Of a DNA stretch of 64,000 bases, positions 14,051-52,400 are shown piece by piece; position 1 is the first letter of the stretch, and each line of letters opens with the position of its first letter. The notes beneath the pieces were generated by a model. That model saw only the letters and a list, made by a program, of their open reading frames with translations. It did no database searches and was not told the origin of the DNA. This stretch comes from Emticicia oligotrophica DSM 17448 (lineage in GTDB: Bacteria; Bacteroidota; Bacteroidia; Cytophagales; Spirosomataceae), in assembly GCF_000263195.1 (NCBI RefSeq), contig NC_018748.1, positions 3,658,001 to 3,722,000 of the forward strand, in the 5' to 3' direction. The translations under genes were made by a program, and so were the position numbers.

Positions 14051-14098
14051 GTAGAGACGTCTCATGCAATTTCATTAGAGAGACGTCTCTACTTTTTT
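14051..14098. terminator. Inverted repeat (GTAGAGACGT family) acting as terminator between convergent genes
   Basis: GTAGAGACGTCTC (14051-14063) pairs perfectly with GAGACGTCTCTAC (14080-14092) and is followed by a T run. The arms share GTAGAGACGT with the palindrome at 4480-4507. Confidence 0.75.
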
Positions 14099-14099
14099 A

Positions 14100-16088
14100 T
14101 TATAATATTCTAATTCCTCCTTGCAATCCTACCCAAGAAGTAAGTGTAGCTTTCTGACCCAAATAATTACCTTGTTTTTCTGAAAGCTTCCAGTTATTCA
14201 ATTTTCCCAAATCAATGCCTGATTCATCACTTGCTAAGAAATTAAAGCTTGGTGAAATAAAGAAAGCCAGATGTCGTAAAGCTTTGACTTCTAAACCTAA
14301 AGCTAATTTAGTATGTTGATTCAATTTCCAACGATTATTGTTAGTTTGAATATGAGAAGAAACCAAATCAAGATTCAGACCAAAAGTTCGATTTAATTTC
14401 AAAGCAGTTCCTAGGCCGTATCCGAGTGAAAAATTCGGTTTAGCTTCAAAACCAAAATTATAACCTGCTGTTAGAATATTATAGAATTGGTGAACCCCTG
14501 TCTTAAAGCTCATATTAAACCAGTTAACTTCATTTGTTCCAATTTCAAGTCTTTGATAACCACCTTTTCCTGCAAAACTCAATAAACCTATTGGTAAGTT
14601 GTTTTTACTTTCTGAAGCAAAGTTAAATAGACCAATTTGTGAACCATTTTTTACCTTTTTTGCAAAATTCAAGAGCGAGATTTGTAAGCCAGTCAGAGTG
14701 CCCCCAACTACATTTATCGTGCCTGATACTTGTAATCCTTTATAGTTCTTACCAACTAAATTGCCAAAACTTGCTACTTGAATACCATTTCCGTTGCCTA
14801 TTACTGCATTTCCGAATCCCGCTGCTTGAATACTTGCATGCATGTCTTGTAAAACTAAGTTCCCAAATCCTGAAGCTTGGATACCCGAAAAGTTCTTAAG
14901 TGTAGCGTTGGCGAATCCTGCAACTTGAATACCACCTGTATTACCACCATTTAAGTTGCTAAATCCAGAACCTTGAATGCCATAAAAGTTTCTGCCATTC
15001 ACACTCGTAAAACCCGCAACCTGAATACCCTTCACATCTTGACCAACCAAATTGGCAAACCCTGAGGCTTGAATTCCATTTACTTTTCCTCGAACAACAT
15101 TAAGGAATCCACCAACTTCTAATGAACGAACGCCCAAAGAATAACCAGCAATGATATTTAATGAAATATTATTTATCACATTTCCACTTAAATAATGATT
15201 GGTTCCAATAAATGGCAAAAATGAAATTTGAATTGGGCGATAAATGGTGTCACGAATATTATCAAGATGAATATTTTGTTTTTGCGTTATAAACCAATCA
15301 GTTAAGCGTCTTTGGGTAATGAGTAATTTCTCTCGGGTACTTGCCCAATATTCTTCATAATTAAACTTCGGAATTTCGATGATAATTGAATCTTTTTCTT
15401 CTCTTGGCTCAATTTTGGTAATAATTGGTTGGATAGGTGGCAAGCTATCTAGTTTCTTATTGGGTAAGGAATCAATTTTAAAAGAAACCAAACGAGCAAT
15501 TGTATCAATTTTTGGAAGTTTGGGTGTTGGTAATAGGTTGATATTGAGTAGTTTGTCTTGCTTTGCTTTAATTAAAATACGCTCATCTTGATAGTTTTGC
15601 TTTCTGACGAGCAAGTTGATATTATTTAGTTCTTTGGGAATTTTTAGACGGTAATAGCCATATTGATTAGATACGGCAGAAGCGAGGGTAACTGGTTCAT
15701 AAATACTCGCTCTTTCAATTTTCAAGCCCGTTTCCCCGTCTGAAACGTAGCCCATTACGAAAAAATCTTTTTGAGGTTCTTCTGTATTTTTCTTCAAAAT
15801 AATATAATTACCTCTATTCTTAAACGAAATCGTATTACCTAAAATATTCGATAAAACCTCTCTAACTGGTTGATTTTGAGTGTTTAAACTTACTTTCTTT
15901 TCCACCGAAATTTCTTCGGGATTATAAGAAAAACTAAAGTTTCCAGCTTTTGAAATAATGTTAAGTGCATTATCAATACGTTCATTGGAAATTTTAATCG
16001 AAATAATTCGCTCAAGCGGAGGGCGGCTTTGAGAAATTACTTTAGTAATACAGATGAGGAGTAATAAAAATGTTAATAGCTTTTTCAT
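14100..16088 (-). CDS. STN and carboxypeptidase-regulatory-like domain protein with GIQxxGF repeats
   Basis: 662 residues: signal peptide (ends near VISQS), an STN secretin/TonB short domain at about 27-100 (NERIDNALNIISKAGNFSFS, then VREVLSNILGNTISF), a carboxypeptidase-regulatory-like beta sandwich at about 110-190, a proline/charged linker, then a long repeat region (about 320-480) of roughly 20-residue units with the core GIQxxGFxN, and a C-terminal region that looks like outer-membrane strands. It lies last in the sigma/SnoaL/FecR gene set, where a TonB-dependent receptor is usual. The STN domain would let it signal to FecR from the outer membrane; this is inference. Function is otherwise unknown. 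Confidence 0.8.
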   Translation of the reverse strand: MKKLLTFLLLLICITKVISQSRPPLERIISIKISNERIDNALNIISKAGNFSFSYNPEEISVEKKVSLNTQNQPVREVLSNILGNTISFKNRGNYIILKKNTEEPQKDFFVMGYVSDGETGLKIERASIYEPVTLASAVSNQYGYYRLKIPKELNNINLLVRKQNYQDERILIKAKQDKLLNINLLPTPKLPKIDTIARLVSFKIDSLPNKKLDSLPPIQPIITKIEPREEKDSIIIEIPKFNYEEYWASTREKLLITQRRLTDWFITQKQNIHLDNIRDTIYRPIQISFLPFIGTNHYLSGNVINNISLNIIAGYSLGVRSLEVGGFLNVVRGKVNGIQASGFANLVGQDVKGIQVAGFTSVNGRNFYGIQGSGFSNLNGGNTGGIQVAGFANATLKNFSGIQASGFGNLVLQDMHASIQAAGFGNAVIGNGNGIQVASFGNLVGKNYKGLQVSGTINVVGGTLTGLQISLLNFAKKVKNGSQIGLFNFASESKNNLPIGLLSFAGKGGYQRLEIGTNEVNWFNMSFKTGVHQFYNILTAGYNFGFEAKPNFSLGYGLGTALKLNRTFGLNLDLVSSHIQTNNNRWKLNQHTKLALGLEVKALRHLAFFISPSFNFLASDESGIDLGKLNNWKLSEKQGNYLGQKATLTSWVGLQGGIRIL

Positions 16089-16205
16089 ATTAAAATACTG
16101 AATTCTGTTTTGAGGCTATGACATTTTATTTTTGATTTTCCCCTATGCAAGTTGGCAGTTTTTATAATCTTTTTGTATAAAATTGGTAATACGTTTGACG
16201 TATGT

Positions 16206-17237
16206 TTACTGAGCATTGCTTAATGTTCCACATCCTGTCCCATCAATAATATATTTTTCTCCTTCGATTATAACTTTAAGATTAAGCGTTTCTGCAATTA
16301 CATTGAGGGCATTTGGTAAGCTTTCGTTATTGAAAGTAGTAGTTAAGCGACAGCTCTTAATGGCATTGTTTTTCAGTACAATTTTCTTGTGATAGTTTTC
16401 ACTTAAAACAGTTAGCACATGTTCAAGACTTGAATTTTCAAAAATGAATGTTTTTGTATGGTAAGCAAAAATATTTTTATCAGTTAAAATTGCTTTTTTG
16501 ATGGTGTCTTTGGCAGCCTCAAATTCAGCCTCCTCGCCTTTTACTAAAAGTGTTTTTTGTTTTTTGTGCTTAAATTCAACTTTGCCCGATTCTACACTTA
16601 CTTTTACGTTGGTGGTGTAAGCTTTTACATTAAAAGAAGTGCCAAGAACCTTTACATCAGTGCCGTTGGCGTGGATGATAAAAGGCTTTTGCTCATTGCG
16701 TTTGACATTAAAAAAAGCCTCACCCGAAAGATTAATTTCACGGGTATCACCCTCAAAATCTGTTGGATAGCTTAATTGAGTATTTGAATTAAGAAAGACA
16801 ACTGAGCCATCAGGAAGCTTTTGTTCTAGGGTTTGATTTTGAGTTTTGAGCGTAATGATGTCAGGTTCTTTTTTACGCATGAATAATATCGCAAGGCTGG
16901 CAGCTAAAAGTAAAGTGATACTTGCTGCGATGCGAACAGGCGTAAAAAAAAGGAGTTTACTTTGCTTAGCTTTAATATTTTTTTGGTTAGGATTTGGCTC
17001 CATTTTAGCCTTCACCTTTTTCCACGCGGCATCAACATTAACAACTACCTGCTCGTCTGAATTTTCGGCTTTACTATTGGCAATTTGTGCCAAGATAAAC
17101 TGGTAATCGTTTAGTTCTTTTTGGTTTTTTGGGTCTTTCCTTAACCAATCCTCAACTAATGCCGATTCTTGGGCATCAGTTTCCTGAGCCAAGTATTTGC
17201 CTAAAAGGTTTTCGGATATTGGTTGGTTAGGGGTCAT
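16206..17237 (-). CDS. FecR family anti-sigma factor / sigma regulator
   Basis: 343 residues: an N-terminal cytoplasmic part (MTPNQPISENLLGKYLAQET), one membrane segment near 110-125 (VRIAASITLLLAASLAILFM), the periplasmic FecR domain (QTLEQKLPDGSVVFLNSNTQ, GEAFFNVKRNEQKPFIIHA, GTSFNVKAY) and a C-terminal STN-like domain (SLEHVLTVLSENYHKKIVLK). Such proteins hold an ECF sigma factor and release it when an outer-membrane transducer signals. The sigma factor is two genes upstream and the STN protein is the next gene downstream (117 bp). Confidence 0.93.
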   Translation of the reverse strand: MTPNQPISENLLGKYLAQETDAQESALVEDWLRKDPKNQKELNDYQFILAQIANSKAENSDEQVVVNVDAAWKKVKAKMEPNPNQKNIKAKQSKLLFFTPVRIAASITLLLAASLAILFMRKKEPDIITLKTQNQTLEQKLPDGSVVFLNSNTQLSYPTDFEGDTREINLSGEAFFNVKRNEQKPFIIHANGTDVKVLGTSFNVKAYTTNVKVSVESGKVEFKHKKQKTLLVKGEEAEFEAAKDTIKKAILTDKNIFAYHTKTFIFENSSLEHVLTVLSENYHKKIVLKNNAIKSCRLTTTFNNESLPNALNVIAETLNLKVIIEGEKYIIDGTGCGTLSNAQ

Positions 17238-17240
17238 TTT

Positions 17241-17603
17241 TTATTCAGAATAATATACATTTATTTGATTAACCATCAAATTTTTATCGAATGTCATCAC
17301 TTCAGCCGCCTTTTTATTAGTCGCTGTATTCAAATAATAAATCGTGATGCCATCAATTCCAATCAAAAGTTCGATTAACTCAAATTTTAAATTCGGGATT
17401 CGCTCTAAGCCAATCGTCCAATATTTTCTAACTTCCTCTTTTCCTACAACAATACCATTGCTTTGCGGGTAAAGTTTGGCCGCCATTGGCGTTGTTATAG
17501 AGAAGTCATCGGTATAATGGCTCAAAATTCTATCAAGGTCATGCGAATTCCAAGCGTCTATCCATTCTTCTGCAAAAGATTTGGCAAAGTCCAATGTTAT
17601 CAT
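17241..17603 (-). CDS. SnoaL-like / NTF2-fold protein
   Basis: 120 residues. FAEEWIDAWNSHDLDRILSH at the N-terminus and the cone-shaped alpha+beta pattern that follows are typical of SnoaL-like polyketide-cyclase-fold proteins. Catalytic activity cannot be assigned; many members are small-molecule binding or unknown. It is inserted between the sigma gene (no spacing: its ATG directly follows the sigma stop) and fecR (3 bp), so it is certainly co-transcribed, an unusual passenger in a sigma/FecR operon. Confidence 0.8.
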   Translation of the reverse strand: MITLDFAKSFAEEWIDAWNSHDLDRILSHYTDDFSITTPMAAKLYPQSNGIVVGKEEVRKYWTIGLERIPNLKFELIELLIGIDGITIYYLNTATNKKAAEVMTFDKNLMVNQINVYYSE

Positions 17604-18170
17604 CTAATTCAAGAAAAATATGAGTAATGGTAAATATTCTGCTAGTTCGAGTCGTAAAATTTTTAATGCTTTCCCTATTTGGTTTTCAACCGTTTTTGGT
17701 GAAAGATTGAGTTGTTCGGCTATTTCGTGATATTTAAGTTCTTCGAACCTGCTCATTCTGAAAATCAATTGACATTGCTCTGGTAATTTCTTAATTGCCT
17801 CTTCAATTTTAAATTCAAGTTCATTTTTTATAACTGTTTGACTCACCGATTCATACGAAGCCTCATAATAATTGACAGCGTATTGTTGGTGGTCTTCTCG
17901 AACTTTCAAGTGTTTGATTCTATTCAAACAATGATTATGTACCGCCCGATATAGATACGATTTAAAGGAAATAGAGATTTCTAAATCTTCTCGTTTCTCC
18001 CAAATGCTCAAAAAAAGATTTTGTACAATTTCTTCGGCTTCTTCAATTTCTTTGAGCATCGAGTTGGCATACGTGCATAGGGTCTGATAATATTTCCGAA
18101 ATACATGTTCGAAAACATTTTCATCTCCTTCTTTGATTGCACTGATTATTTCTTGCTCCGATAAAGTCAC
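17604..18170 (-). CDS. ECF RNA polymerase sigma factor (sigma-70 family)
   Basis: 188 residues, standard for FecI-type ECF factors. Region 2 covers about residues 20-90 (FEHVFRKYYQTLCTYANSML, EEIVQNLFLSIWEKRE) and region 4 about 125-175 (AIKKLPEQCQLIFRMSRFEE, YHEIAEQLNLSPKTVENQIG), the latter an HTH that reads the -35. It directs transcription of a small regulon, held in check by the downstream FecR. First gene of the four-gene minus-strand operon. Confidence 0.95.
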   Translation of the reverse strand: MTLSEQEIISAIKEGDENVFEHVFRKYYQTLCTYANSMLKEIEEAEEIVQNLFLSIWEKREDLEISISFKSYLYRAVHNHCLNRIKHLKVREDHQQYAVNYYEASYESVSQTVIKNELEFKIEEAIKKLPEQCQLIFRMSRFEELKYHEIAEQLNLSPKTVENQIGKALKILRLELAEYLPLLIFFLN

Positions 18171-18402
18171 CGATTTTATTCAATATTTTGTGCAAACATA
18201 AAGTTTTGTGTCCAATTATCTAAAACCACAATGGATAAATGGTGAAAATACGATTTAAGCCATCTAAATAAATGACAACCCAGAAAATTATTTCCCCTAT
18301 GGGGAAGTTTAAATTATTTAAAAAAAATAGTGATGGGGTAGGGGGGAAGGCTTTTTCGGTTGTCTTTTGTTCATAATTAAACAATTAAAAAGCTATTATA
18401 AA

Positions 18403-19122
18403 ATGAAAAAAATGAAATTCGCCGCCATGTTATTGATGGCCGCTCTTACGCTAAGTATGATTTCTTGTGATGTACTACAGACCACGGTTGACCCAGTTTA
18501 TGCAAAACAAAAATTATTTGATGTGAAAAATTTTGATGCTCTTGAAATAGGAAGTGCTTTTGAGATTACTGTAACTAAAGGAACGGATTTCAAAATAAAA
18601 GCATCGGGAGATGAAAAAGACATCGATGATTTAATTGTGAAAGAAAGAAATGGAACTTTGGAGGTTTACTACAAAAATAATTGGCGATTACGCCGATATC
18701 GAATGAGTATTGATATTGAAATGCCAGACTTGAAAAAGGTAGATTTTTCGGGAGCTACGGAGTCTAGTATAAAAGGGTTTGATAACTTAGATGAATTGGA
18801 AATTGAACTTTCGGGAGCATCGAAAGGAACTTTCTATGCAAGTGCAAGAACTTATGATATTAACTTATCGGGTGCTTCAATACTTGATTTGGAAGGACAA
18901 ACCAATAAAATTTATGCTGAACTTTCGGGTGCTTCTACCTTGAATGCTTTTAATACTGATGCAATTGATGCTTCTATGAATCTTTCGGGGGCAAGTAATG
19001 GTCGAATTAATGTTTCAAAAAAATTGAAAGTAACAGCGAGTGGAGCAAGTAAGCTGCGTTATCGTGGAGCGGCCAACGTTGAATCAAATCTATCTGGAAG
19101 CAGTAAGGTTGTTAAAGAATAA
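18403..19122 (+). CDS. Head GIN-domain (DUF2807) putative auto-transporter adhesin lipoprotein
   Basis: 239 residues from ATG 18403. Lipoprotein signal: MKKMKFAAMLLMAALTLSMI then S-C at the lipobox. The mature protein is a right-handed beta-helix of DUF2807 type with repeated LSGAS motifs (ELSGASKGT, NLSGASILD, ELSGASTLN, NLSGASNGR, TASGASKLR, NLSGSSKVV), about one per 20-25 residues. Cell-surface or periplasmic role unknown. The frame is open from a TTG at 18367, but those residues would precede a normal lipoprotein signal, so the ATG is preferred. Confidence 0.9.
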   Translation: MKKMKFAAMLLMAALTLSMISCDVLQTTVDPVYAKQKLFDVKNFDALEIGSAFEITVTKGTDFKIKASGDEKDIDDLIVKERNGTLEVYYKNNWRLRRYRMSIDIEMPDLKKVDFSGATESSIKGFDNLDELEIELSGASKGTFYASARTYDINLSGASILDLEGQTNKIYAELSGASTLNAFNTDAIDASMNLSGASNGRINVSKKLKVTASGASKLRYRGAANVESNLSGSSKVVKE

Positions 19123-19178: not shown

Positions 19179-19856
19179 TCAATTTGCGTGAAAATGATGT
19201 AAAAAACTCAACAAACGTTCATAATTTATTAAATCATCGTCGGTACCTTGTTTCAGTAAAAAATGACGATAAATATTGGCTAAAGTAGTGAAATTATGAT
19301 TGTCGTTTAGCTTTGCTGCAACAATTCCCTTGAAGCAACGATGGACTTGATTGTATAAATACCTACATGGTAAGCTTGGGGCATCGTTGAGTTTTTCTTC
19401 AATGAAACTTAAAGAGTCTGCGGTGTTCAAAAAATCAAATCCTTTGTTTAGATAAAAGTCTTTTATTTCTTCAACAACTTTTTGAAATTCCTCTTCATCT
19501 GAAATTTTATACCTAAAATATTTCTTCTCTAAAAACTTCCCAATACTAATAACCAAAGTATTTGCCGAAGGGCGATAACCATAGCTATTATTTAAAAACT
19601 GTTGGGCTATTTCTTCAATAAATTCAAATCTTACGCCAAAATTTACTTCAATCCAGTAGATATTTTGATTAGCTGATATAGAAAAAATTATATTCTGAAA
19701 TCCGTTTTGCGTAGATTTGCGAAACTGCTTTTGGTCAAGACACAAACCAAACCCGTGCGATGAGAAAAAGCCATCTAATCGCTCAAAGAATCGGGTTTCG
19801 AATTGATATTGTCCCATACTTAAATTCATATAATGATAAACTTTTGTTGAATACAA
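19179..19856 (-). CDS. Hypothetical cytoplasmic protein
   Basis: 225 residues, not recognised. No signal peptide or membrane segment. The N-terminal half has a mixed alpha/beta pattern (FFERLDGFFSSHGFGLCLDQ, IIFSISANQNIYWIEVNFGV) loosely like DUF4304-type proteins; the C-terminal half is helical. It stands alone, convergent with the GIN-domain gene and divergent from the TonB-dependent receptor gene. Met12 (MGQYQFETRF) is an alternative start. Confidence 0.65.
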   Translation of the reverse strand: MYSTKVYHYMNLSMGQYQFETRFFERLDGFFSSHGFGLCLDQKQFRKSTQNGFQNIIFSISANQNIYWIEVNFGVRFEFIEEIAQQFLNNSYGYRPSANTLVISIGKFLEKKYFRYKISDEEEFQKVVEEIKDFYLNKGFDFLNTADSLSFIEEKLNDAPSLPCRYLYNQVHRCFKGIVAAKLNDNHNFTTLANIYRHFLLKQGTDDDLINYERLLSFLHHFHAN

Positions 19857-19905: not shown

Positions 19906-22248
19906 ATGTTCAGGAGATTTTTTAAAATAGTTTTTTTGGTTTGTATTGGTTTTGGCGTGAGTGCTCAATCAAATACAAAAACTACGCCATTAGCTTCTCA
20001 AGTTATCAGAGGAAAAGTAATTGACTACGTAAGTGAACGAGCGGTAGTTGGAGCTTCAATCACCTTAAAAGATGCTAGAAAAGGTACACAAACAGACCCT
20101 GAGGGAAATTTTAGCCTTGGGAAAATGCCCATTGGGCGTTACCAAATTCAAGTGAGTTCGGTAGGATACGAATCGCAGACAATTTCTGAATTATTGCTTG
20201 AGTCAGGCAAAGAAATGGTGCTTGAAGTGAGATTGCGTCCTTCGGCTAATCAATTAGCTGAGGCAGTAGTACGTGCTCCTTCAGCTAATCTTTCTGGAGC
20301 AGTTACGAGTATTCAAAATATTTCAACAGAACAAATATTTCGTTATCCCGGAACGTACCTTGACCCAGCTCGCTTAGCTACAGCCTACGCAGGTGTGGCC
20401 AATTCGAATGACCAAGCAAATGGTATGATTATTAGAGGAAACTCGCCGAATGGTATGCAATGGCGTTTGGAAGGAGTTGAAATCGTAAATCCTAACCATT
20501 TGAGTAATGCAGGTACTTTTAGTGATAGAATTACTCAGAATTCAGGTGGCGTAAACATTCTTTCTGCACAGTTATTAGGTAATATGAATTTTCTCACAGG
20601 GGCTTTCCCTGCTGAATATGGGAATGCTCTCTCAGGAGTAATGGATTTACGTTTAAGAAAAGGAAATGATAAAAAGCATGAATTTACTGCACAAGCGGGC
20701 TTAATTGGAATAGATTTAGCAGCCGAAGGCCCAATGGGAAAGAAAGGTGCAAGTTATTTAGTCAATTATAGGTATTCTTTTACGGGTTTATTGGCGGCCA
20801 TGGGTGTAAAATTTGGCGGTGAAGATATTCGTTTCCAAGATTTATCGTTCAACTTAAATTTCCCAACTAAAAAAGCGGGAAATTTTACGATTTTTGGAAT
20901 GGGAGGCCTAAGTAGCAATGTCTTTGAGGCAGTGAGAGATACCACTCAGTGGTTGGTTCAGAAAGATGGTTTTGATATTTATTTCAAAAACAAAATGGGT
21001 GCTGCTGGACTAACACATAGTTTAAGTTTAGGTAAAAAGCTTCTTTGGCGTACGGTAGTTGCAACATCTGGCTTGAAAAATTCTCGTGAAGGGTACGTTT
21101 TAAGTAAAGTCAATTTCCAAAGGTTTTTAAACCAAGCCGATTCATCTATTAAAACAAAATCTACTTTTACCACCAATTTGACTTATAAGTTTGGCGAATA
21201 TTCCAATCTAAAGGTAGGAGTTTTTGTTACACGTCAATATGATGAATTATTTGCTCGTTCAACTGATAAAAAATCATCTGGAGCCGCTCAAGGACTTGTT
21301 ATTCAACCTTATGCAAATTTACATTTGAGCCTATTGCCCAAACTTACTGCCAATATAGGTTTGCATTACCTGAAATATACCTTTAATCAAACCAAATCTA
21401 TCGAGCCTCGCGTATCAGTTCAATATCAAATCACTAATAATCAAACAATTAGTGCGGCTTATGGTTTGCACAGCCAGCTCCAACAACCAGAAATTTATTT
21501 TGCCTTAGCCACGCCTAATAGTGGTTTTTTAGGAAATGCCACACTTGATGTAACCAAATCACGTCATTATGTTTTGAGCCATCAATATTCATTTAAAAAG
21601 GGTTCTTATTTTAAAACAGAATTGTTTTATCAGCAAATATTCAATGTGCCGACAGCACTGTTTAATCCTACATTTTCGACGCTTAATTTAATTGAAGATT
21701 ATACGCCAGAACCGCTACAAAACTTTGGTAAAGGGCGTAATTATGGCGTAGAAATTAGTTATCAACAATATCTCACCAATGGCTTTTATGCTTTAACTAA
21801 TGCTACACTTTACAATGCTACTTATACGAATCATGATGGCATTGAAAGAAACAGCCGTTTTAATGGAAAACATATTTTTAATCTAACAATTGGGAAGGAA
21901 TGGTCGAGAAGTAAAGACCGTACACTCGGAACCAGTTTAAGAGTCGTTTGGTTAGGTGGATTCTACGAAAGAGAAATAAATCAACAAGCGTCTATTGAAA
22001 ATAAACGTTTGATTTATAAAAATGCCGATGCTTTCACAGTAAAGCAAGCGGATTATTTCAGACCAGATTTTAGAATTTACATGAAAAAATCAAAAGAAAA
22101 GTATTCTCGTACGCTTGCTCTTGATATTCAGAATGTGGCAAATTATCAGAATGTTTCTTACAGTTATTATGATATTTTGCAGAATAAAATCGTTCAACAA
22201 TATCAAATGGGCTTAATTCCAATTCTGAGCTATCGTTGGGAATTTTAA
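19906..22248 (+). CDS. TonB-dependent receptor with carboxypeptidase-regulatory-like domain
   Basis: 780 residues. A signal peptide (to about GVSAQ) is followed by the N-terminal beta sandwich (IRGKVIDYVSERAVVGASIT, then DPEGNFSLGKMPIGRYQIQV), a plug domain (about 120-230, with GMIIRGNSPNGMQWRLEGVE and PAEYGNALSGVMDLRLRKGN) and a beta barrel ending in an aromatic residue (SYRWEF). It should import a substrate across the outer membrane using TonB energy. There is no SusD partner, and no substrate clue. The adjacent M1 peptidase gene (67 bp downstream, same strand) could be co-transcribed. Confidence 0.93.
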   Translation: MFRRFFKIVFLVCIGFGVSAQSNTKTTPLASQVIRGKVIDYVSERAVVGASITLKDARKGTQTDPEGNFSLGKMPIGRYQIQVSSVGYESQTISELLLESGKEMVLEVRLRPSANQLAEAVVRAPSANLSGAVTSIQNISTEQIFRYPGTYLDPARLATAYAGVANSNDQANGMIIRGNSPNGMQWRLEGVEIVNPNHLSNAGTFSDRITQNSGGVNILSAQLLGNMNFLTGAFPAEYGNALSGVMDLRLRKGNDKKHEFTAQAGLIGIDLAAEGPMGKKGASYLVNYRYSFTGLLAAMGVKFGGEDIRFQDLSFNLNFPTKKAGNFTIFGMGGLSSNVFEAVRDTTQWLVQKDGFDIYFKNKMGAAGLTHSLSLGKKLLWRTVVATSGLKNSREGYVLSKVNFQRFLNQADSSIKTKSTFTTNLTYKFGEYSNLKVGVFVTRQYDELFARSTDKKSSGAAQGLVIQPYANLHLSLLPKLTANIGLHYLKYTFNQTKSIEPRVSVQYQITNNQTISAAYGLHSQLQQPEIYFALATPNSGFLGNATLDVTKSRHYVLSHQYSFKKGSYFKTELFYQQIFNVPTALFNPTFSTLNLIEDYTPEPLQNFGKGRNYGVEISYQQYLTNGFYALTNATLYNATYTNHDGIERNSRFNGKHIFNLTIGKEWSRSKDRTLGTSLRVVWLGGFYEREINQQASIENKRLIYKNADAFTVKQADYFRPDFRIYMKKSKEKYSRTLALDIQNVANYQNVSYSYYDILQNKIVQQYQMGLIPILSYRWEF

Positions 22249-39043: not shown

Positions 39044-42000
39044 ATGAAAACGTACATATATTTGATTTTTACTTGTATTTGTTTTAACTCGTTTGGACAG
39101 GAAAGAAAATTAGAGATTGATTTTGAAGCCATAAAGTCTTCTTTAAAAGTTGCTAAATTAGAAAAAGCAATAAGAGCCTCCAATAATACCAATGATGAAC
39201 GCCCAATTATTAAACTCCCATTGATAGATGGAACTTTGAAGGCCTTTTATTTTATGGAGTCTCCTATTTGGGAGAAAGTAGAGGATATGGCAAAGGCAGA
39301 GATACAGACATATTCTGGAGTAAGTGTTGATAACGATGGCTTCTTAGCTCGAATCACTATTTCTTCATTAGGGTTATCTGCAATAATACGAAGTCCAAGT
39401 GCATATTACATAATAGAGGTAGAAGATTTGCCAAACAATAAATATATTATTTATCCACTTGGGTCAAAACGAAATATTAAATGCGAGGTTGGAGAAAACT
39501 CATTAATAAAAAATGTTGAGAGCAAATTTAAACTTAGTAATCAATTATCTTCTGCTCCTTTTCCTAATGGAACTTATTTGAGAGTATATAGATTTGCCGC
39601 TGCTGCAACGGGTGAATTTACAACTAACATTGGGAGTGGAAGTAGAACAACCGCTCTACAAAGAATTACTGAAATCGTTAATCTTATTAGCTTAATTTAC
39701 GAAAGTGAAGTAGCGATTCGTTTTTCATTGGTTGCGGAAACCACTAATAAAAATTTAATTTTTTCTGATGCTTCAACAGACCCCTTTTCACCATCAGGTT
39801 CTGCAAGTGCTGATGCCTCGCAAAATGGGTTTAACTTAATGTCGTCGAATCAAGGAAGTTTTGCCAATTTCCTCCCTTATGTCAATTATGATATTGGACA
39901 TACATTCCATTTTGTTTCGGGTTCATCAGGTAGCGGACAAGCCGGCCCAACTCCCTGCACAAATTCGTATAAAGCACGTGGCTGGACTCAAATGGGACTT
40001 AACTATTCAACGGGAATTGTAGCTAATATCGCAGCACATGAAATTGGACATCAATTTGAAGCCCACCATACCTTTAATGCTAGAGGAGGAACATCAAGCG
40101 AGCCGACTGTATGTTCTGATCAATGGGATGGAACTTCTGCTGTCGAACCTGGCGGTGGAGTTACCCTAATGGGTTATGGACAAGTTTGCTCGTCGCCAAA
40201 TTACACATTAACTGGCAAAGTTGATAATAGTTTTTTTCATACAAAAAGCATAGAGCAAATACTACAAAGTGATGGTTTTGGGGCAGCTGGAGCAAATGGT
40301 TGTGCGAATCTGATTGCAACCGGTAATTCATTACCAGTTGCAAATGCTGGTCCAGATGTAGTGATGCCTGTAAATACACCATTTACATTGACAGGCAGTG
40401 CCACAGATAACGATAATACTGATGTGCTAACCTATACTTGGGAAGAATATGATATTGCAACATTAGACGATAAAGGTGCTTTGGGAGCTACGGTTACAGG
40501 TAGGGGTGGTTATTCTGCTGTAAATAGTCCAAATACTGCTCCACTTTTTAGAAGCTATATTCCCTCAATAACAGGCTATACGCGTACTTTTCCGGATATG
40601 CAGTATGTGTTAAATAATGTAAATAATGGGAGTCCTAATTCTGGAGAAGATTTACCACAAGTTGGTAGGATTATGAAATTTAGATTAACTGTTCGGGATA
40701 ATAAAGTTAATGGGGGAGGAATTGATTCGGACGAAAGAATAATAAATGTAGATGCGAGTAAAGGACCATTCACTTTAACTTCTCCTAATGGAGGGAATGT
40801 TTTGAATGCTGGAAGTAGTTTAATAATTACGTGGCAAGTAAACGGTACAGATGTTCTCAGTTCTAACGTGAAAATTTTACTTTCAATAGATGGTGGGAAC
40901 TCTTTTCCGATAATATTGGTCGCTAATACTCCAAACGATAATAACGAAATAGTCACGGTACCTAATAATGTGGCATCTTCCACAACTTGTCGTATCAAAA
41001 TAGTAAGTCTAAATGATACAACATTTGAATTTTTCGATGTTTCAGATAGTAATTTTACAATTAGTTCATCATGTTTAGCAAATAATAGCTATATATGTCC
41101 GACTAATACAATTTCTGAACAATCTGGGAATGCAATTTTTAATTTAGGTTTAAACTATTATCCAGCGAATAAAATTATAGGTGGTAAGAAGGTTTATTCA
41201 ACAAGTGGAAGTGTAAATAGAACTTTATTTCTATACACAAATAACAGCTATACTACTTGTACAAACGCTGGTTTTCAAGTCAATTCAATTTTAATTTCAT
41301 TTCGTGTCTCAAAGCCAGGGGTGTATAATATTTCTGCTTTAACAAATACGGCATCTTCAAGGTCATTTACAGTTTATTCATCAACAAGTTTAAGTTGCAA
41401 TACTTTTATTGGCAGTAACTCCTATGATGCAGGAGGTGGCAGTTATTCAAGGATAACAAGTCGGGATATTTTCCTGAATGAGTGTATTGATTATTACATC
41501 GTTGTTTATTTGGGAAGTTCAAGTACGCCTACAATTGATTTATCAATTATTGGCGATGGTGACGTTATTGAAGTTTCATCGAATCCACAAGGAGTAAATT
41601 ATACTTATGTGGCTGTAAATCAATCTAATAGTCAAATTGCGGCAGTTTCATCTAATTCAGACTTTACTAGTCTAAGCCAAGGAAATTATAAAATTTATGG
41701 TTTGGAATATCAAAATACCATAAATCCAACAATTTTTTTGAATCAGACTATCTCTCAGGTATATAATTCAAATAACTGTATTTTGTTTAGTACAAATTCA
41801 AAAACAATTACCGTTCTAGAAAGTCCATGTTTAACTAATATACTCCTTATAAGTCCAAATAACAATATTGGTACGGGGACGCAATTAATACAAGCTTCGG
41901 CAACTGCTTTAAATGCTGGAATTACGGCATCAAATAAAATTACTGGTACTGGAACAAGAGCTATTTTTCAGGCAAAAACATTATTATTGCAAAGTGGATT

Positions 42001-42052
42001 TGAAGTAAATGCGGGTTCAATATTCAGAGCGGAAGTAGGAGGGTGTAATTAG
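39044..42052 (+). CDS. Reprolysin-like zinc metalloprotease, secreted, with 3-coathanger-stack C-terminus
   Basis: 1002 residues with signal peptide (MKTYIYLIFTCICFNSFGQ). The M12B/reprolysin-like catalytic domain spans about 180-430: YLRVYRFAAAATGEFTTNIG, a GHTFHFVSGS strand, and the zinc site AHEIGHQFEAHHTF (H-E-x-x-H-x-x-x-x-x-H). Ig/PKD-like modules follow (PVANAGPDVVMPVNTPFTLT; GPFTLTSPNGGNVLNAGSSL). The last 60 residues (ITGTGTRAIFQAKTLLLQSG, then SIFRAEVGGC) are the 3-coathanger-stack domain common in Cytophagales secreted proteins. It is a secreted endopeptidase; export by T9SS is possible but no type A sorting motif is seen. Confidence 0.9.
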   Translation: MKTYIYLIFTCICFNSFGQERKLEIDFEAIKSSLKVAKLEKAIRASNNTNDERPIIKLPLIDGTLKAFYFMESPIWEKVEDMAKAEIQTYSGVSVDNDGFLARITISSLGLSAIIRSPSAYYIIEVEDLPNNKYIIYPLGSKRNIKCEVGENSLIKNVESKFKLSNQLSSAPFPNGTYLRVYRFAAAATGEFTTNIGSGSRTTALQRITEIVNLISLIYESEVAIRFSLVAETTNKNLIFSDASTDPFSPSGSASADASQNGFNLMSSNQGSFANFLPYVNYDIGHTFHFVSGSSGSGQAGPTPCTNSYKARGWTQMGLNYSTGIVANIAAHEIGHQFEAHHTFNARGGTSSEPTVCSDQWDGTSAVEPGGGVTLMGYGQVCSSPNYTLTGKVDNSFFHTKSIEQILQSDGFGAAGANGCANLIATGNSLPVANAGPDVVMPVNTPFTLTGSATDNDNTDVLTYTWEEYDIATLDDKGALGATVTGRGGYSAVNSPNTAPLFRSYIPSITGYTRTFPDMQYVLNNVNNGSPNSGEDLPQVGRIMKFRLTVRDNKVNGGGIDSDERIINVDASKGPFTLTSPNGGNVLNAGSSLIITWQVNGTDVLSSNVKILLSIDGGNSFPIILVANTPNDNNEIVTVPNNVASSTTCRIKIVSLNDTTFEFFDVSDSNFTISSSCLANNSYICPTNTISEQSGNAIFNLGLNYYPANKIIGGKKVYSTSGSVNRTLFLYTNNSYTTCTNAGFQVNSILISFRVSKPGVYNISALTNTASSRSFTVYSSTSLSCNTFIGSNSYDAGGGSYSRITSRDIFLNECIDYYIVVYLGSSSTPTIDLSIIGDGDVIEVSSNPQGVNYTYVAVNQSNSQIAAVSSNSDFTSLSQGNYKIYGLEYQNTINPTIFLNQTISQVYNSNNCILFSTNSKTITVLESPCLTNILLISPNNNIGTGTQLIQASATALNAGITASNKITGTGTRAIFQAKTLLLQSGFEVNAGSIFRAEVGGCN

Positions 42053-46036: not shown

Positions 46037-46469
46037 TAATTGTGATTAAACGGTTACGTTTTTTAAAAAGCATAGTCTAAATAAAATAGTGAAGTAGCTT
46101 TCTCTACAAAAAAATCTCTCGCTTTAAAATGACTAAAAAATGTGCTTTTACAAAATGAATTTCATGCTTTTGCTCGACACCTACTCAAGTTTACAATAAA
46201 TTTTGATTTCGTAATTTGAAACCCCAAAAAAAGCTAATCCTTTAATCAATATCCTAAAAGTAGTATTCCCATTCATTTTAAGTGAAAGAAACTTAAATCC
46301 ATAAAAATGTAAATCTTCAGTTATTAAAGAAATGATTTGAAGGATTTAGTAGTCGAAAGAAAGCAAATTTCAAAGAGTGTAATTAATGCCTTGGGCTTTT
46401 GAACTCATTAAAAATTAAAGTTTCAGTCTAAGATAAGATATAATCAGTATCCCAAAAATGATTTAAGTG
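46037..46469. other. Intergenic region upstream of the giant adhesin gene
   Basis: AT-rich, presumably holding the adhesin promoter or leader; no exact TAnnTTTG box or strong hairpin was identified. Confidence 0.4.
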
Positions 46470-49400
46470 ATGAAAAATTTTAAGAAAACTAATCAATTTG
46501 CCAAAATTATTCAAAAAAGCTATTTCTGGGCGTTTTTTGTATTTAGCCTATTTGAAAGTTTTATTACTTATGGGCAAGCTTGTACTGGTTCTTTAGGATC
46601 ACCAGTTGTAAAACAAGATTTTGGAACCAATGGTGGAACTTTTGAATTAACAACTTACTCCTACCAAAGTACCGAATGTCCAAATGATGGTAATTATTCT
46701 CTTCAACCAAAAACAGTTGCTTGTTTTTCAGGTAATTGGAATACACTAAATGAAGATCATACACCTAATGATATAAATGGCAATTTGATGATTGTAAATG
46801 CTGACCCCAATCCATCAAAGGTATTTTATATTCAAACAGTCAATAATCTTTGTCCTAATACTACTTATGAATTATCTGCTTACATAATTAATTTACTAAG
46901 ACAAGGAGTTTCAGGAGCTAAACCAAACATTAAATTCAAGATAGAAAAAACAGATGGAACTTTAATACAAGAATATTCGACTGGAAATATTGATTCACCA
47001 TCAAGTAATCCTGTGACTCCTTCAATGTGGGGTAGGTATGCTACTTTTTTCACAACATCAGCAGGAATGAATAGTGTAGTATTAAAACTTATTAACAATG
47101 CAGCAGGAGGGGGTGGAAATGATTTAGCCATAGATGATATTGCATTTAGTCCTTGTGGTCCATTGTTGAGTTCTAACTCAGGTGGAAGCAACACTAAAAT
47201 TGTATGTTCCGGTACTAATGTTACGCTGTCAACAAATCTTTCTGGTGGATACACCAGTCCTGAATATCAGTGGCAAGAAAGTAGTAATAACTTGGACTGG
47301 TCAAATATTGCAGGTCAAACAAATAGCACTTATACATTTTTATCCAGTAATACTGGAAGTACTGTAACAGCAAAGTATTTCCGTTCTTTAGCCTCTGAAG
47401 CGGGCAATATAAATAATGTCAATTGTAGAATTGAATCGAGCGTAACTCTAATAAAAACAATTCCTCAACCAATAGTCAATCAGCCAGTAAATTTAACAGT
47501 ATGTAATAACACACTTACAACTGTGAATTTTACAGGTATTGCTACGCGTTATAATTACACAAGTAGTGCAAATATTGGAATAACAACAACTAATGTGTCA
47601 GCTACCAATAATAATGCTTCTTTTACATTTACTGCACAAAATAATGGTACTTCACCAGTTAGCTCAACTATTACAGTGACTCCAATTTATCAGCAAGACT
47701 CGATCTGTCAAGGAGAAGCCAAAACATTCACAATTACAGTAAATCCAACACCAACAGTTGAAAAACCAAGCAATCAAGTAATCTGTAACAATACATTATC
47801 AACAACTGTCAATTTTAATGGAGCCGTTCCTGGAACAATATACAATTGGACGAATAATACTCCATCTATAGGATTGGCTAGTAGTGGTTCGGGTAATATT
47901 GGAAGTTTTACAGCCATAAATTCTGGTACTAATCCTATCACGGCCACCATAACTGTTACACCAAGTTATACAAATAATGGTAGGACCTGCGATGGTACAC
48001 CTCAAACATTCACAATTACAGTAAATCCAACACCAACAGTTGAAAAACCAAGTAATCAAGTTAACTGTAATAATACTTCGTCAAGTGCTATTAACTTTAG
48101 TGGTGCGGTAGCAGGAACAATATACAATTGGACAAATAATACTCCATCGATAGGATTAGCTACTAGCGGCTTGGGCAACATTGGGAGTTTTACAGCCATA
48201 AATACTGGTTCGAACCCAATAACAGCTACTATAACAGCTACACCAAGCTATACAAATGCAGGTAGGACATGCGAAGGAATACCTCAAGATTTTACATTTA
48301 CTGTAAATCCTACTCCTACAGTAACAAAACCTGTCAATCAAACTATCTGTGATAATTCTTCAACTACCTTGGTTAACTTTTCAGGAACTGTTTTAGGCAC
48401 GACATATAATTGGACAAATAATACCGCATCAATAGGATTAGCTGCGAATGGCTCAGGCAACATTGGGAGTTTTATAGTAACTAATACAGGTGCAACTCCT
48501 GTAACGAGTACCATAATTGTTACACCAAGTTATACAAATGCAGGAAAGACTTGCGAAGGAACACCTCAAACTTTTTCAATTACTGCAAATCCAAGACCGC
48601 AAGCTTTTGCAAGTCCAAATGAATTAAATATTTGTACCGGAGATAAAATAACTATAAATCTTTCTGATTCAAAAGGCGTATCTGGAACAACTACTTTCTC
48701 TTGGAATAGAGATAATTTATTGAATATCACTGGAGTCAATGGTGGTTCAAGTAATCCCATCTCAGGAGTTCTAATTAACACTACTAACTCAACTCAATCA
48801 ACTAATTTCATAATTACAGCAACCACTCAGGCCGGTTGTGTAAATACAACTAATGCTATTGTAAATGTAACCCCCCAATTGCTTGTCAGTATTTCTGGAA
48901 ATACTTTTTTTTGTGGAACTGGAAATTTAAATAATTCAACATTACTAACTGCTTTAGTTTCAGGTGGAAATAGTAGTTATTCATATCAATGGTATTTAAA
49001 TGGAAACACTATTTCAGGGGCAACAAGTGCAAACTATCAAGCTTCAACAGAAGGGAACTATTGGGTTGAGGTTAAGTCTGAATATTGTGCTAAAAATTCA
49101 AATACTTTAACTGTAAATCCTCCTTATAATTTAGGTGCTGCTCCTACTGTTACACCAAACCCAGTTACAATTTGCCAAAATTCAACTGCAAGTTTTATAG
49201 CGTCAAGTACTTCCACTTTAGGAACTATTTCTTGGTATACAAGTAGTAGCTCAAACTCTACTATTGCCACGGGGAATTCGTTTACCACTCCAACTTTAAA
49301 TAGCAGTCAAACCTATTATGTATCGAGAGTTTATCCTATCCCATTTACGAATCCAATTGTAACTTGTGAAACTTCCAGGACAGAAGTTCAGACCATAATC

Positions 49401-52400
49401 AATCCAGATGTTGTTGCACCGATAGCTATAGGAAATACAAGTATTTGTAAAGGCGAAAGTGCCATTTTATCAATTACAAATACATGTACAGGAGGGGAAA
49501 TTACTTGGAAAAATCAAAATAATGTAGTAATTGGGACTGGGAATGAATTAACTGTTTTTCCAATAATAACCACTTCATATACAGCAACATGTAAAATTGG
49601 GAATTGTATCAGCGATGAATCTAATACTGTAATAATAAATGTGTTGAGTCCGCCTTCAATTTCAATTATACCTACCAATATTACTTGTTTTAATAAAACT
49701 GACGGAAGTATAATTGTGAATGTGAGTGGAGGTAAGGTCCCATATACATACCTATGGAATAATAATGCAACTACACCTGTGATAAATAACTTAACAGAGG
49801 GAAATTATTCGGTTGTCGTGACTGATGATAATAAATGTACTTCAACGGGCAACGTTGTTATCACGGAACCCACTCCAATAGAACTTAGTGTATCAGGTAC
49901 GAATTTGACCTGTACAGGGAATAACAGCGGCCAAGTTATTTTAACAGCGAGTGGCGGGACGGGAACATTAAGTTATTTATGGGACACGGGAGCGACGAGC
50001 AAAGATTTGATAAATGTCTCAGCGGGAACATACAGCGTAAGAGTTCAAGATAGTAATGGTTGTAGAGCTAGTACTTCAGTTACCTTGATAGAACCCACTC
50101 CAATAGAACTTAGTGTATCAGGTACGAATTTGACCTGTACAGGGAATAACAGCGGTGCAGTTACTTTAACAGCGAGTGGCGGCACGGGAACATTAAGTTA
50201 TTTATGGGACACGGGAGCGACGAGTAAAGATTTGATAAATGTCTCAGCGGGAACCTACAGCGTAACAGTCCAAGATAGTAATGGTTGTAGAGCTAGTACT
50301 TCAGTTGTTATCACGGAACCCACTCCAATAGAACTTAGTGTATCAGGTACGAATTTGACGTGTACAGGGAATAACAGCGGCCAAGTTATTTTAACAGCGA
50401 GTGGCGGGACGGGAACATTAAGTTATTTATGGGACACGGGAGCGACGAGTAAAGATTTGATAAATGTCTCAGCGGGAACGTACAGCGTAACAGTCCAAGA
50501 TAGTAATGGTTGTAGAGCTAGTACTTCAGTCACCTTGACAGAACCCACTCCAATAGAACTTAGTGTATCAGGTACGAATTTGACCTGTACAGGAAATAAC
50601 AGCGGCCAAGTTATTTTAACAGCGAGTGGCGGGACGGGAACATTAAGTTATTTATGGGACACGGGAGCGACGAGTAAAGATTTGATAAATGTCTCAGCGG
50701 GAACCTACAGCGTAAGAGTTCAAGATAGTAATGGTTGTAGAGCTAGTACTTCAGTTACCCTGATAGAACCCACTCCAATAGAACTTATTGTATCAGGTAC
50801 GAATTTGACGTGTACAGGGAATAACAGCGGCCAAGTTATTTTAACAGCGAGTGGCGGGACGGGAACATTAAGTTATTTATGGGACACGGGAGCGACGAGT
50901 AAAGATTTGATAAATGTCTCAGCGGGAACGTACAGCGTAACAGTCCAAGATAGTAATGGTTGTAGAGCTAGTACTTCAGTTGTTATCACGGAACCCACTC
51001 CAATAGAACTTAGTGTATCAGGGACGAATTTGACCTGTACAGGAAATAACAGCGGCCAAGTTACTTTAACAGCGAGTGGCGGGACGGGAACATTAAGTTA
51101 TTTATGGGATACGGGAGCGACGAGTAAAGATTTGATAAATGTCTCAGCGGGAACCTACAGCGTAAGAGTTCAAGATAGTAATGGTTGTAGGGCTAGTACT
51201 TCAGTTGTTATTACAGAACCAACTCCACTTTTGAGTATTAAGGGAAGTATTCTAAATGTAAATTGTTCAGGTGATACAAATGGTTCTATTTCTTTAATTA
51301 CAAGTGGAGGTATTGCTCCTTACAGCTATTCTAAAAATGGAGAAATTTTTCAAAATAGTAATGTTTTTAATGGTTTAAAATCAGGAACTTATACTATCGT
51401 AACAAAGGATTTTAATGGATGTCAAGCAATAACCGATATTTCTGTTAATTCTAACGAAAATGATTTAAGTATTACTTCACACCCCCTTTCGGTTGAAGTT
51501 TGCAGTGACTCAATTGTTGTTCTTTTGATTAAAACTCGTGGTAGCGTTATGGGTTATCAATGGAAAAAAAATGGATCTGATATTGTTGGGGCAAATAATA
51601 GTAATTTGATTTTAAATAAAGGAGAATCTGGTAATTTTGTTTGTGTAGTTAGAGGTATCTGTGAATCGTTAGTTTCACAGACGGCTGTAGTAAATGTAAA
51701 AAATTGCCAATCTACAAAAACTGATAAAGGTTGTATAGATCTCGCTTTAAGAAAACGTCTGTTTTTAGAGGGTAATCAAACAAGTTTCTCACATTTGGAA
51801 AATGTAAAATTTGACATAACAGTATTCAACCAATGTAAATATATAAAAGCATATAATATTGATGTTATTGATTACATACCTAAAGGATTTGAGCTAGAAG
51901 CTGTTGTTTCTGAAAATGTAAAATGGAGTAGAACTATTGATACACTTTGGAATGCTGAACGAACAAATATTATTCGAATAGATACGAATGCAATTACCAG
52001 AATAGATAGCTTGGCAGGTGGAGATAGTACGAAGTTAGAGATTGTCTTACGTGTCAAGAATAGTACTCCTAATGGTATTTACATCAATAAATCGGAAATA
52101 TTCAGAGCAACGCTAGACAAGGAAGGCAAATTACCAGTCCTTAATGATAATGATAGTCGTTTTGACAAAAATCCAAACAATGATATTGGCGGTAAAGAGA
52201 ATTCTCCTACTGATAACGAAATTAATGGTGACGGAGATTCTTTAAAAGATGTAATTGGAGGAACGCTTTACAACCACGATGAAGACGATGAAGATCCCGA
52301 AGCAATAATTGTTAATAATATATGCTTTGATTTAGCACTCACAAAGAAGATTGCCTCATATCCAATATCGGCTGTTTATCTTCCAAATGAAAATGTAAAA

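Follow-up and report, generated by a model that had tools for sequence, protein, structure and literature searches.

How is a FecI-like sigma factor informed about the cell surface if the third partner of its operon is no TonB-dependent receptor? In the usual description of FecI/FecR-type signalling, the sensor is a TonB-dependent importer. The question is raised by a gene cluster of Emticicia oligotrophica DSM 17448 (genome of 5.2 Mb, nearest named relatives Emticicia species), located in a stretch of 64,000 nucleotides of contig NC_018748.1 (positions 3,658,001 to 3,722,000), in the following called the window, to which all coordinates refer. Four open reading frames (ORFs) on the minus strand form the cluster: an extracytoplasmic function (ECF) sigma factor of the FecI-like Bacteroidota type (17604..18170, 188 residues; TIGR02985, E 7.6e-53) with orthologues that are 77-88% identical in eight other genomes of the genus, a SnoaL-like protein (17241..17603, 120 residues; SnoaL_2, E 6.8e-12), a FecR-like membrane anti-sigma regulator (16206..17237, 343 residues; FecR PF04773, E 1.5e-18; FecR_C PF16344, E 7.5e-15) and a protein of 662 residues with an STN domain (14100..16088; STN, E 3.8e-08), which is a predicted outer-membrane transducer. 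Residues 138-324 of the FecR-like protein resemble the solved putative anti-sigma factor 4m0n (E 2.7e-28). The four ORFs and their families, which had been named from the sequence letters alone in a first reading (the original prediction), were confirmed by these profile matches, and so was the spacing of 0 bp between sigma and SnoaL and 3 bp between SnoaL and fecR; the gap between fecR and the STN gene comprises 117 bp. We conclude that the cluster probably encodes a cell-surface-signalling circuit of the FecI/FecR type whose outer-membrane transducer is not an importer. Its conserved gene unit, the domain layout of the transducer and a common promoter-like motif that co-occurs with the locus are supported by sequence, structure models and genome comparison.

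Relatives of the locus were found in a scan of named genomes via one conserved peptide pattern of the STN protein, and the best 80 of 141 places were fetched with 6 kb on each side, less at contig ends. Together with the window they make up 81 loci, which are not independent lineages and derive from Spirosomataceae, Cyclobacteriaceae and Bacteroidales metagenome-assembled genomes, among others. By ORF calling a fecR gene was present in 78 and a sigma gene in 74 of the 81 loci. The ORF picker keeps the longest ORF and so hid the sigma gene of L088, which was recovered by tblastn; over the 80 fetched loci this search detected sigma in 75 and FecR in 77 (76/81 and 78/81 with the window added). 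Four of the five loci with a missing sigma gene (L075, L117, L140 and L150) have less than 1 kb of sequence before the STN gene; the fifth, L081, is a genuine exception and is considered below. The synteny of sigma, FecR and STN-repeat protein, for which the original prediction had asked, is thus conserved, and the three genes represent a well-supported conserved unit; a chance neighbourhood is ruled out by the synteny over the relatives. Within the same family, relatives of the STN protein were found in 112 of 150 genomes at E<=1e-10, and 98 of the 150 carried a strong homologue (best E 1e-50 or better). The profile was matched at E<=1e-40 by 49 of 296 genomes sampled across the phylum, and many of the distant matches cover the C-terminal solenoid and barrel part only.

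For the determination of its architecture the STN protein was modelled with AlphaFold2 on a 56-row alignment (predicted local distance difference test score, pLDDT, 87.3; predicted template modelling score 0.67; model numbering is protein numbering minus one), and a homologue with half the repeat stretch was used for a second model (pLDDT 81.1). In the first model a signal helix is followed by the STN domain (about 27-99), a sandwich resembling transthyretin (TTR) and the N-terminal extension (NTE) of SusC proteins (107-188), a linker, helices, a solenoid and a barrel. The STN domain of the short homologue resembles residues 263-335 of the anti-sigma factor 4m0n (Z 10.1). The sandwich matches carboxypeptidase D (5aq0, Z 12.1) and the SusC NTE (9hfj, Z 11.5), and CarbopepD_reg_2 was recognized in the window protein with E 8.9e-07, under the gathering score. 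Among the 56 alignment members, 45 matched STN and 55, including the window protein, matched CarbopepD_reg_2 at E<=0.001. The STN domain and the regulatory-like beta sandwich claimed for the downstream gene are therefore present, and the proline-rich, charged linker is recognizable as a low-confidence stretch around residues 192-220, which reaches to about 240.

The GIQxxGF repeats of the original prediction have a period of 16 residues and correspond to the coils of a beta-solenoid from residue 280 to about 505. Across homologues the repeat stretch comprises 5 to about 14 coils, in odd and even numbers. The repeats are related to the NCBIfam model LA_2272_repeat (NF047436), which was matched by 31 of the 56 members at E<=0.001 and by the window protein at the borderline (25 bits versus a cut-off of 25). 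The solenoid resembles the tailspike 6f7k (Z 12.7, root-mean-square deviation 4.1 over 215 residues), a score at a level where the repeats may share only a common arrangement. We also considered the repeats as strands of a large transmembrane barrel and rejected this, because their number is odd as well as even, each coil comprises about two short strands in both models and the strands of the barrel are located behind the repeats. The barrel itself (507-661) matched a designed barrel (6x9z, Z 15.3), OprF (4rlc, 14.1), OmpA (1qjp, 13.5) and NspA (12.8). In the short homologue, with 80 versus 160 repeat-stretch residues between the same anchors, eight strands were found at 435-585, and the barrel again matched OprF (Z 14.3) and OmpA (13.2). 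Over the alignment, hydropathy alternates in the eight barrel strands, weakly in 534-542. The barrel-like C-terminus was thereby recovered in both models, and by prediction it is an eight-stranded up-and-down barrel of the OmpA/OprF type with lipid-facing alternation. A Foldseek search of the whole model against the PDB gave one match at E<=0.001, the TTR-like domain of a carboxypeptidase, and among viral structures seven matches at this threshold, which are partial or poorly superposed. No Plug or TonB-barrel (TonB_dep_Rec) match at E<=0.001 was present in any of the 56 members. With this and the small barrel of the models, the view that the predicted outer-membrane partner of the conserved unit is not an importer was upheld.

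Which genes might be controlled by the sigma factor is indicated by a motif, TAGGGG-N16-TGTCWT, that occurs at three sites of the window: upstream of the sigma operon (18272..18299, minus strand), upstream of the STN gene within the gap behind fecR (16118..16145, minus strand) and upstream of a divergent gene encoding a DUF2807 protein (18339..18366, plus strand). Three matches of this strict form in 64 kb compare with 0.01 expected, and none of 100 shuffles contained three. Genome-wide there were five matches (reversed-pattern control: two), and the other two are situated 60 bp before a gene for a lipoprotein-like protein of 87 residues and 42 bp before a cupin-like gene. For the 80 loci other than the window a relaxed form, GGGG-N16..18-GTC, was searched from 300 bp upstream to 60 bp into each ORF, with ORFs of less than 100 residues and genes with less than 250 bases of upstream stretch excluded from the counts. 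It preceded 61 of 75 sigma genes, 33 of 39 DUF2807 genes, 20 of 41 genes for a TonB receptor, 26 of 78 STN genes and 6 of 13 genes for a second repeat protein; the background amounted to 2/76 for fecR, 8/438 for other genes and 0/11 for SnoaL, DUF3575 and ThrA-like genes together. This second repeat protein follows the STN gene in several loci and gave no STN match in the two copies scanned (L136:8182-9417 and L152:7737-8933). In 76 of the 81 loci fecR and the STN gene lie near each other, and with STN start codons guessed by script, 25 of 29 STN genes behind a gap of at least 45 bp (window included) had a motif of their own, versus 0 of 47 behind shorter gaps. The STN gene is either close behind fecR or provided with its own copy of the putative promoter motif. 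A standard TonB receptor in the operon together with an independently transcribed STN gene had been named as an outcome that would speak against the original prediction; half of this was found, in a sense other than that meant, since in the loci with wide gaps the STN gene has its own motif but this is the same motif as at sigma. The genes for sigma, the STN protein and DUF2807 are a probable regulon under a common promoter-like motif.

The same genome carries two conventional sigma/FecR/STN loci (L161 and L162) with the same type of sigma factor and FecR, in which STN is located on an ORF of about 1100 residues. At neither of the two was GGGG-N15..19-GTC detected before sigma or the STN-bearing ORF, and a general role of the motif as promoter of the FecI-type sigma factors of this genome is therefore not supported. 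Its specificity could still be shared with some other sigma factor.

Across the 150 family genomes the motif accompanies the locus. Mean numbers of strict matches were 3.74 in the 98 genomes with a strong STN homologue (control 0.87), 0.64 in 14 genomes with a weak one (0.36) and 0.61 in 38 genomes without (0.71). For matches per Mb a Mann-Whitney test gave p 4e-14, and p 6e-9 with the second group limited to 26 genomes of at least 4.5 Mb, kinship being ignored in both. An identical tRNA-like sequence, a false positive of the pattern, recurs in several genomes of one genus of 16 genomes (g32; G051, G134, G130 and others) and inflates the counts. After removal of this genus the means were 3.92 in 85 strong, 0.54 in 13 weak and 0.56 in 36 genomes without homologue (p 2e-13, kinship again ignored).

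Within the genus of the window, 11 genomes including its own contained 50 strict matches versus 6 in the control, 21 of them in the cluster and 29 outside. All but three of the latter (26/29) precede one of seven recurring gene kinds, which we grouped from their start sequences: genes for a protein of 407 residues (6), glyoxalase-like (5), cupin-like (4), small Tyr/Arg-rich (4; two kinds joined by eye) and AsmA-like proteins (3) and for proteins of 141 (2) and 238 residues (2). A Pfam scan of eight representatives of these genes named no transporter; four gave no match and one a weak match. The protein of 407 residues (L212:781-2001 and orthologues) has no Pfam family and looks membrane-like by eye. 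Its gene carries GGGG-N17-GTC at -48/-49 in all eight locus-bearing genomes that have it, six of which fit the strict pattern, and no match to the gene was found in the window's genome. Two congeners, G062 (99% complete) and G123 (90%), contain no strong STN match and only sigma paralogues of 38-39% identity, with one strict motif match in G062 and none in G123. Both have the gene for the 407-residue protein (86% identical), and its upstream region can be aligned, but it lacks GGGG and shows TATC in place of TGTC. This co-variation of motif and locus is the strongest link between the sigma factor and its putative motif.

For the function of the circuit we propose the following course. The barrel would sit in the outer membrane, and the solenoid and the STN domain would lie in the periplasm, because an even strand number puts both barrel ends on the periplasmic side. 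The STN domain would contact the C-terminal region of FecR, as it is reported for PupB and PupR (PMC7186176) and for FoxA and FoxR (PMC11637429), in which the anti-sigma factor is described as protected by this contact before induction. A change at barrel or solenoid may alter this contact, upon which FecR might be cleaved or release the sigma factor. The latter would then transcribe its own operon, the transducer gene, the DUF2807 lipoprotein gene and a few others, in congeners possibly those for AsmA-like, glyoxalase-like and cupin-like proteins and for proteins without assigned family. SnoaL, a local addition, may tune sigma. As its signal, envelope state or a ligand bound at the surface is the most likely, rather than import.

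Several observations weigh against this reading. In L081 an STN protein is encoded without sigma or FecR beside it, and 14 of 76 sigma genes (window included) lack the motif, which was first noticed by eye in the three sites of the window. DSSP assigned nine strands between 510 and 660 in the first model, and eight are counted because 633-641 does not alternate in hydropathy; this strand is not amphipathic and was set aside. The periplasmic location of the solenoid rests on the even strand number, and soluble avidin-type barrels also match the barrel, with Z of about 10-11. The tests over the 150 family genomes are not corrected for phylogeny, 6 of the 85 strong-homologue genomes (g32 removed) contain no strict match, and the completeness of G123, one of the two locus-free congeners, reaches only 90%. 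Moreover, five of the eight scanned target proteins gave no match or a weak match only, and in all eight loci of the Emticicia group, window included, the neighbouring TonB receptor has no motif.

This receptor, which the original prediction had not mentioned, is encoded about 1.7 kb beyond sigma (19906..22248, plus strand, 780 residues). It contains CarbopepD_reg_2 and Plug (22.9 bits, just below the cut-off of 23.9) and no STN match. STN-less receptors of this subfamily adjoin 42 of the 81 loci, 32 of them downstream on the same strand, and are a common but not constant partner of the circuit. That the STN protein stands in place of a TonB receptor accordingly holds for its role as transducer, with none of 56 members carrying a Plug or TonB barrel, but not for the neighbourhood, where a receptor is frequent. 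Such a neighbour raises the possibility of a split import system, in which the STN protein reports substrate occupancy of the receptor; transducer and importer would then be separate proteins, and uptake would remain under the control of the circuit. An NTE-like sandwich is present in both, and the receptor has the motif in 20 of 42 loci (window included) and in 20 of 34 outside the Emticicia group. It also appears specific: the window copy is 33-75% identical to the copies of other loci, three of them partial, and at E<=1e-20 its own genome contains two relatives, one of full length (36%) and one partial (29%). However, 39 of the 81 loci contain no such receptor within 6 kb on each side, less at contig ends, the eight Emticicia-group receptors are without motif as mentioned, and the scanned targets outside the cluster include no transporter by Pfam. 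We regard split import as possible but doubtful.

An envelope-stress circuit, which is our best explanation with the signal narrowed, would instead have the barrel-solenoid protein monitor the outer membrane or cell wall and induce DUF2807 and envelope factors, as a Bacteroidota counterpart of RpoE, Rcs and Psp. An eight-stranded barrel is too narrow for import and leaves no room for it. Three of the 11 genomes of the genus have the motif before the AsmA-like gene, but at a distance of 181-184 bp from the start codon; in addition, AsmA scores under the curated cut-off, and the other targets have no clear envelope role. An envelope signal is favoured because DUF2807 belongs to Toastrack, into which it is reported to be unified with DUF4097 and DUF2154, as partner of phage shock protein (PSP) envelope-stress systems (PMC11237479). 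The DUF2807 gene of the window is divergent from sigma (18367..19122, plus strand; PF10988, E 1.4e-32); its ORF opens at TTG 18367, ATG at 18403 or 18412 is the likelier start, and the product is lipoprotein-like with a lipobox-like start. A DUF2807 neighbour was present in 40 of the 81 loci (23 downstream on the same strand, 15 divergent before sigma, two upstream on the same strand), preceded by the motif in 34 of 40 with the window included. A strict lipobox pattern is contained in the first 60 residues of 20 of these proteins, and inspection by eye shows a Cys behind a hydrophobic stretch in 37 of the 40. As far as the account in PMC11237479 goes, it argues for an intracellular Toastrack, unlike the lipoprotein-like proteins here. 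A DUF2807 protein of Porphyromonas gingivalis, PG0419, is listed in an iron-stimulon table (PMC10434189). With this evidence an envelope-stress signal is a serious candidate that still falls short of being probable. Much more speculative, and rather improbable, is the reading that the solenoid acts in the periplasm as a ruler or a sensor of tension. In that case a rigid stack, whose number of coils is fixed in each lineage, would keep STN at a constant distance from the outer membrane, and contact with FecR would be made or lost whenever the outer membrane, the cell wall or the spacing of the envelope changes. If true, what this sigma-factor pathway measures would be the geometry or integrity of the envelope and no ligand.

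As a component of the cascade, the SnoaL gene was not borne out. Between sigma and fecR it occurs in two of the 81 loci, the window and Emticicia aquatilis (L074), and a conserved component is thereby ruled out; SnoaL is at most an accessory, apparently a local addition. The sigma-fecR distance exceeds 150 bp in 4 of 73 measured loci, namely in the window, L074, L128 with a DUF5618 gene and L146 with a short fecR ORF. The DUF5618 gene (L128:4470-4850) belongs to Larkinella soli and occupies the same place as SnoaL in the window; the sigma-fecR junction therefore tolerates inserts. It was also considered whether SnoaL binds small molecules and modulates sigma, which would make it a free-standing version of the SnoaL_2 domain that is fused to ECF41 sigma factors; such an extension is reported for SigJ (PMC8103513). 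The sigma gene ends with TAG and the ATG of SnoaL follows with 0 bp between, so that they are separate ORFs with a stop codon and no sigma-SnoaL_2 fusion exists, and SnoaL is the best conserved of five cluster proteins in comparison with E. aquatilis (91% identity; sigma 87%, STN 77%, FecR 76%, DUF2807 76%). Relatives were found in 20 of the 150 family genomes, including the window's and E. aquatilis, and a distant sigma homologue lies near 2 of 10 homologues (L172 and L173) whose 1.5-kb flanks were checked. On the other hand, 8 of these 10 have no sigma nearby, 18 other family genomes carry SnoaL homologues, only two of the 73 measured junctions contain the gene and the junction accepts other inserts. 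A modulator function thus seems unlikely. The likeness to ECF41 factors such as SigJ consists in the combination of a sigma factor with a SnoaL-type domain; here it is a separate gene, next to a FecI-type sigma factor, and in two genomes only.

Compared with known systems, the circuit shares with the FecI/FecR/FecA type (FecA, PupB, FoxA) an ECF sigma factor, a FecR-like regulator with an STN-like C-terminal part and a partner with N-terminal STN, whose gene is, judged by the motif, apparently under the same sigma. It differs in that the partner has no plug or large TonB-receptor barrel and consists of beta-solenoid and eight-stranded barrel instead, and in that a DUF2807 lipoprotein is among the predicted targets. 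The most similar system is VreA/VreR/VreI (PUMA3) of Pseudomonas aeruginosa, for which a non-receptor STN protein with a sigma/anti-sigma pair is described (PMC2729926); VreA, according to that paper, is a short protein, soluble for the most part, whose C-terminal domain is TolA-like, whereas the protein here is predicted to be barrel-anchored and occurs in many genera. The surface-repeat proteins of the LA_2272 family (NF047436) have the repeat model in common with the 31 matching members, but here the repeats stand behind STN and NTE-like domains and are tied to sigma and FecR. With PSP/Toastrack systems the DUF2807 domain is shared. FecI/FecR-like genes have been reported from Leptospira (PMC12155086, PMC4863578), and the part of PMC12155086 concerned with them notes no STN-type receptor. 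In the literature searched, mostly at title and abstract level and with few subscription papers, no barrel-solenoid transducer in a sigma/FecR unit was found. The circuit appears to be a variant of cell-surface signalling that separates signalling from import, forming a branch in many Bacteroidota in which the signalling domain and the sigma/anti-sigma pair are kept, the domain being carried by a small barrel and a solenoid of variable length. The analysis supplies a proposed structure for the LA_2272-type repeat and names a candidate regulator for the DUF2807 lipoproteins found in this branch. It further predicts TAGGGG-N16-TGTCWT as promoter, lists a small number of candidate targets and offers, with the two congeners that lack the locus, a natural comparison.

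Around the cluster some further features were recorded. Counts of sigma-70-type promoters (23 versus 17.9) and terminators (4 versus 3.3) were within about 1.2 standard deviations of shuffles. An ORF of 225 residues (19179-19856) without Pfam match lies between the DUF2807 and TonB receptor genes, and relatives occur at the same place in 7 of the 81 loci, which all belong to the Emticicia group. The convergent DUF3575 and STN genes are separated by a stretch with an inverted repeat of 13 bp, GTAGAGACGTCTC ... GAGACGTCTCTAC, at 14051-14092; it is possibly a bidirectional terminator, and the searched pattern was found at this single genome site. Finally, an ORF of 1002 residues (39044-42052) encodes a reprolysin-like metallopeptidase. 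The product of another ORF, of 2501 residues (46467-53972), contains SprB repeats as well as Ig-like and PKD-like domains and is probably a large protein of the cell surface.

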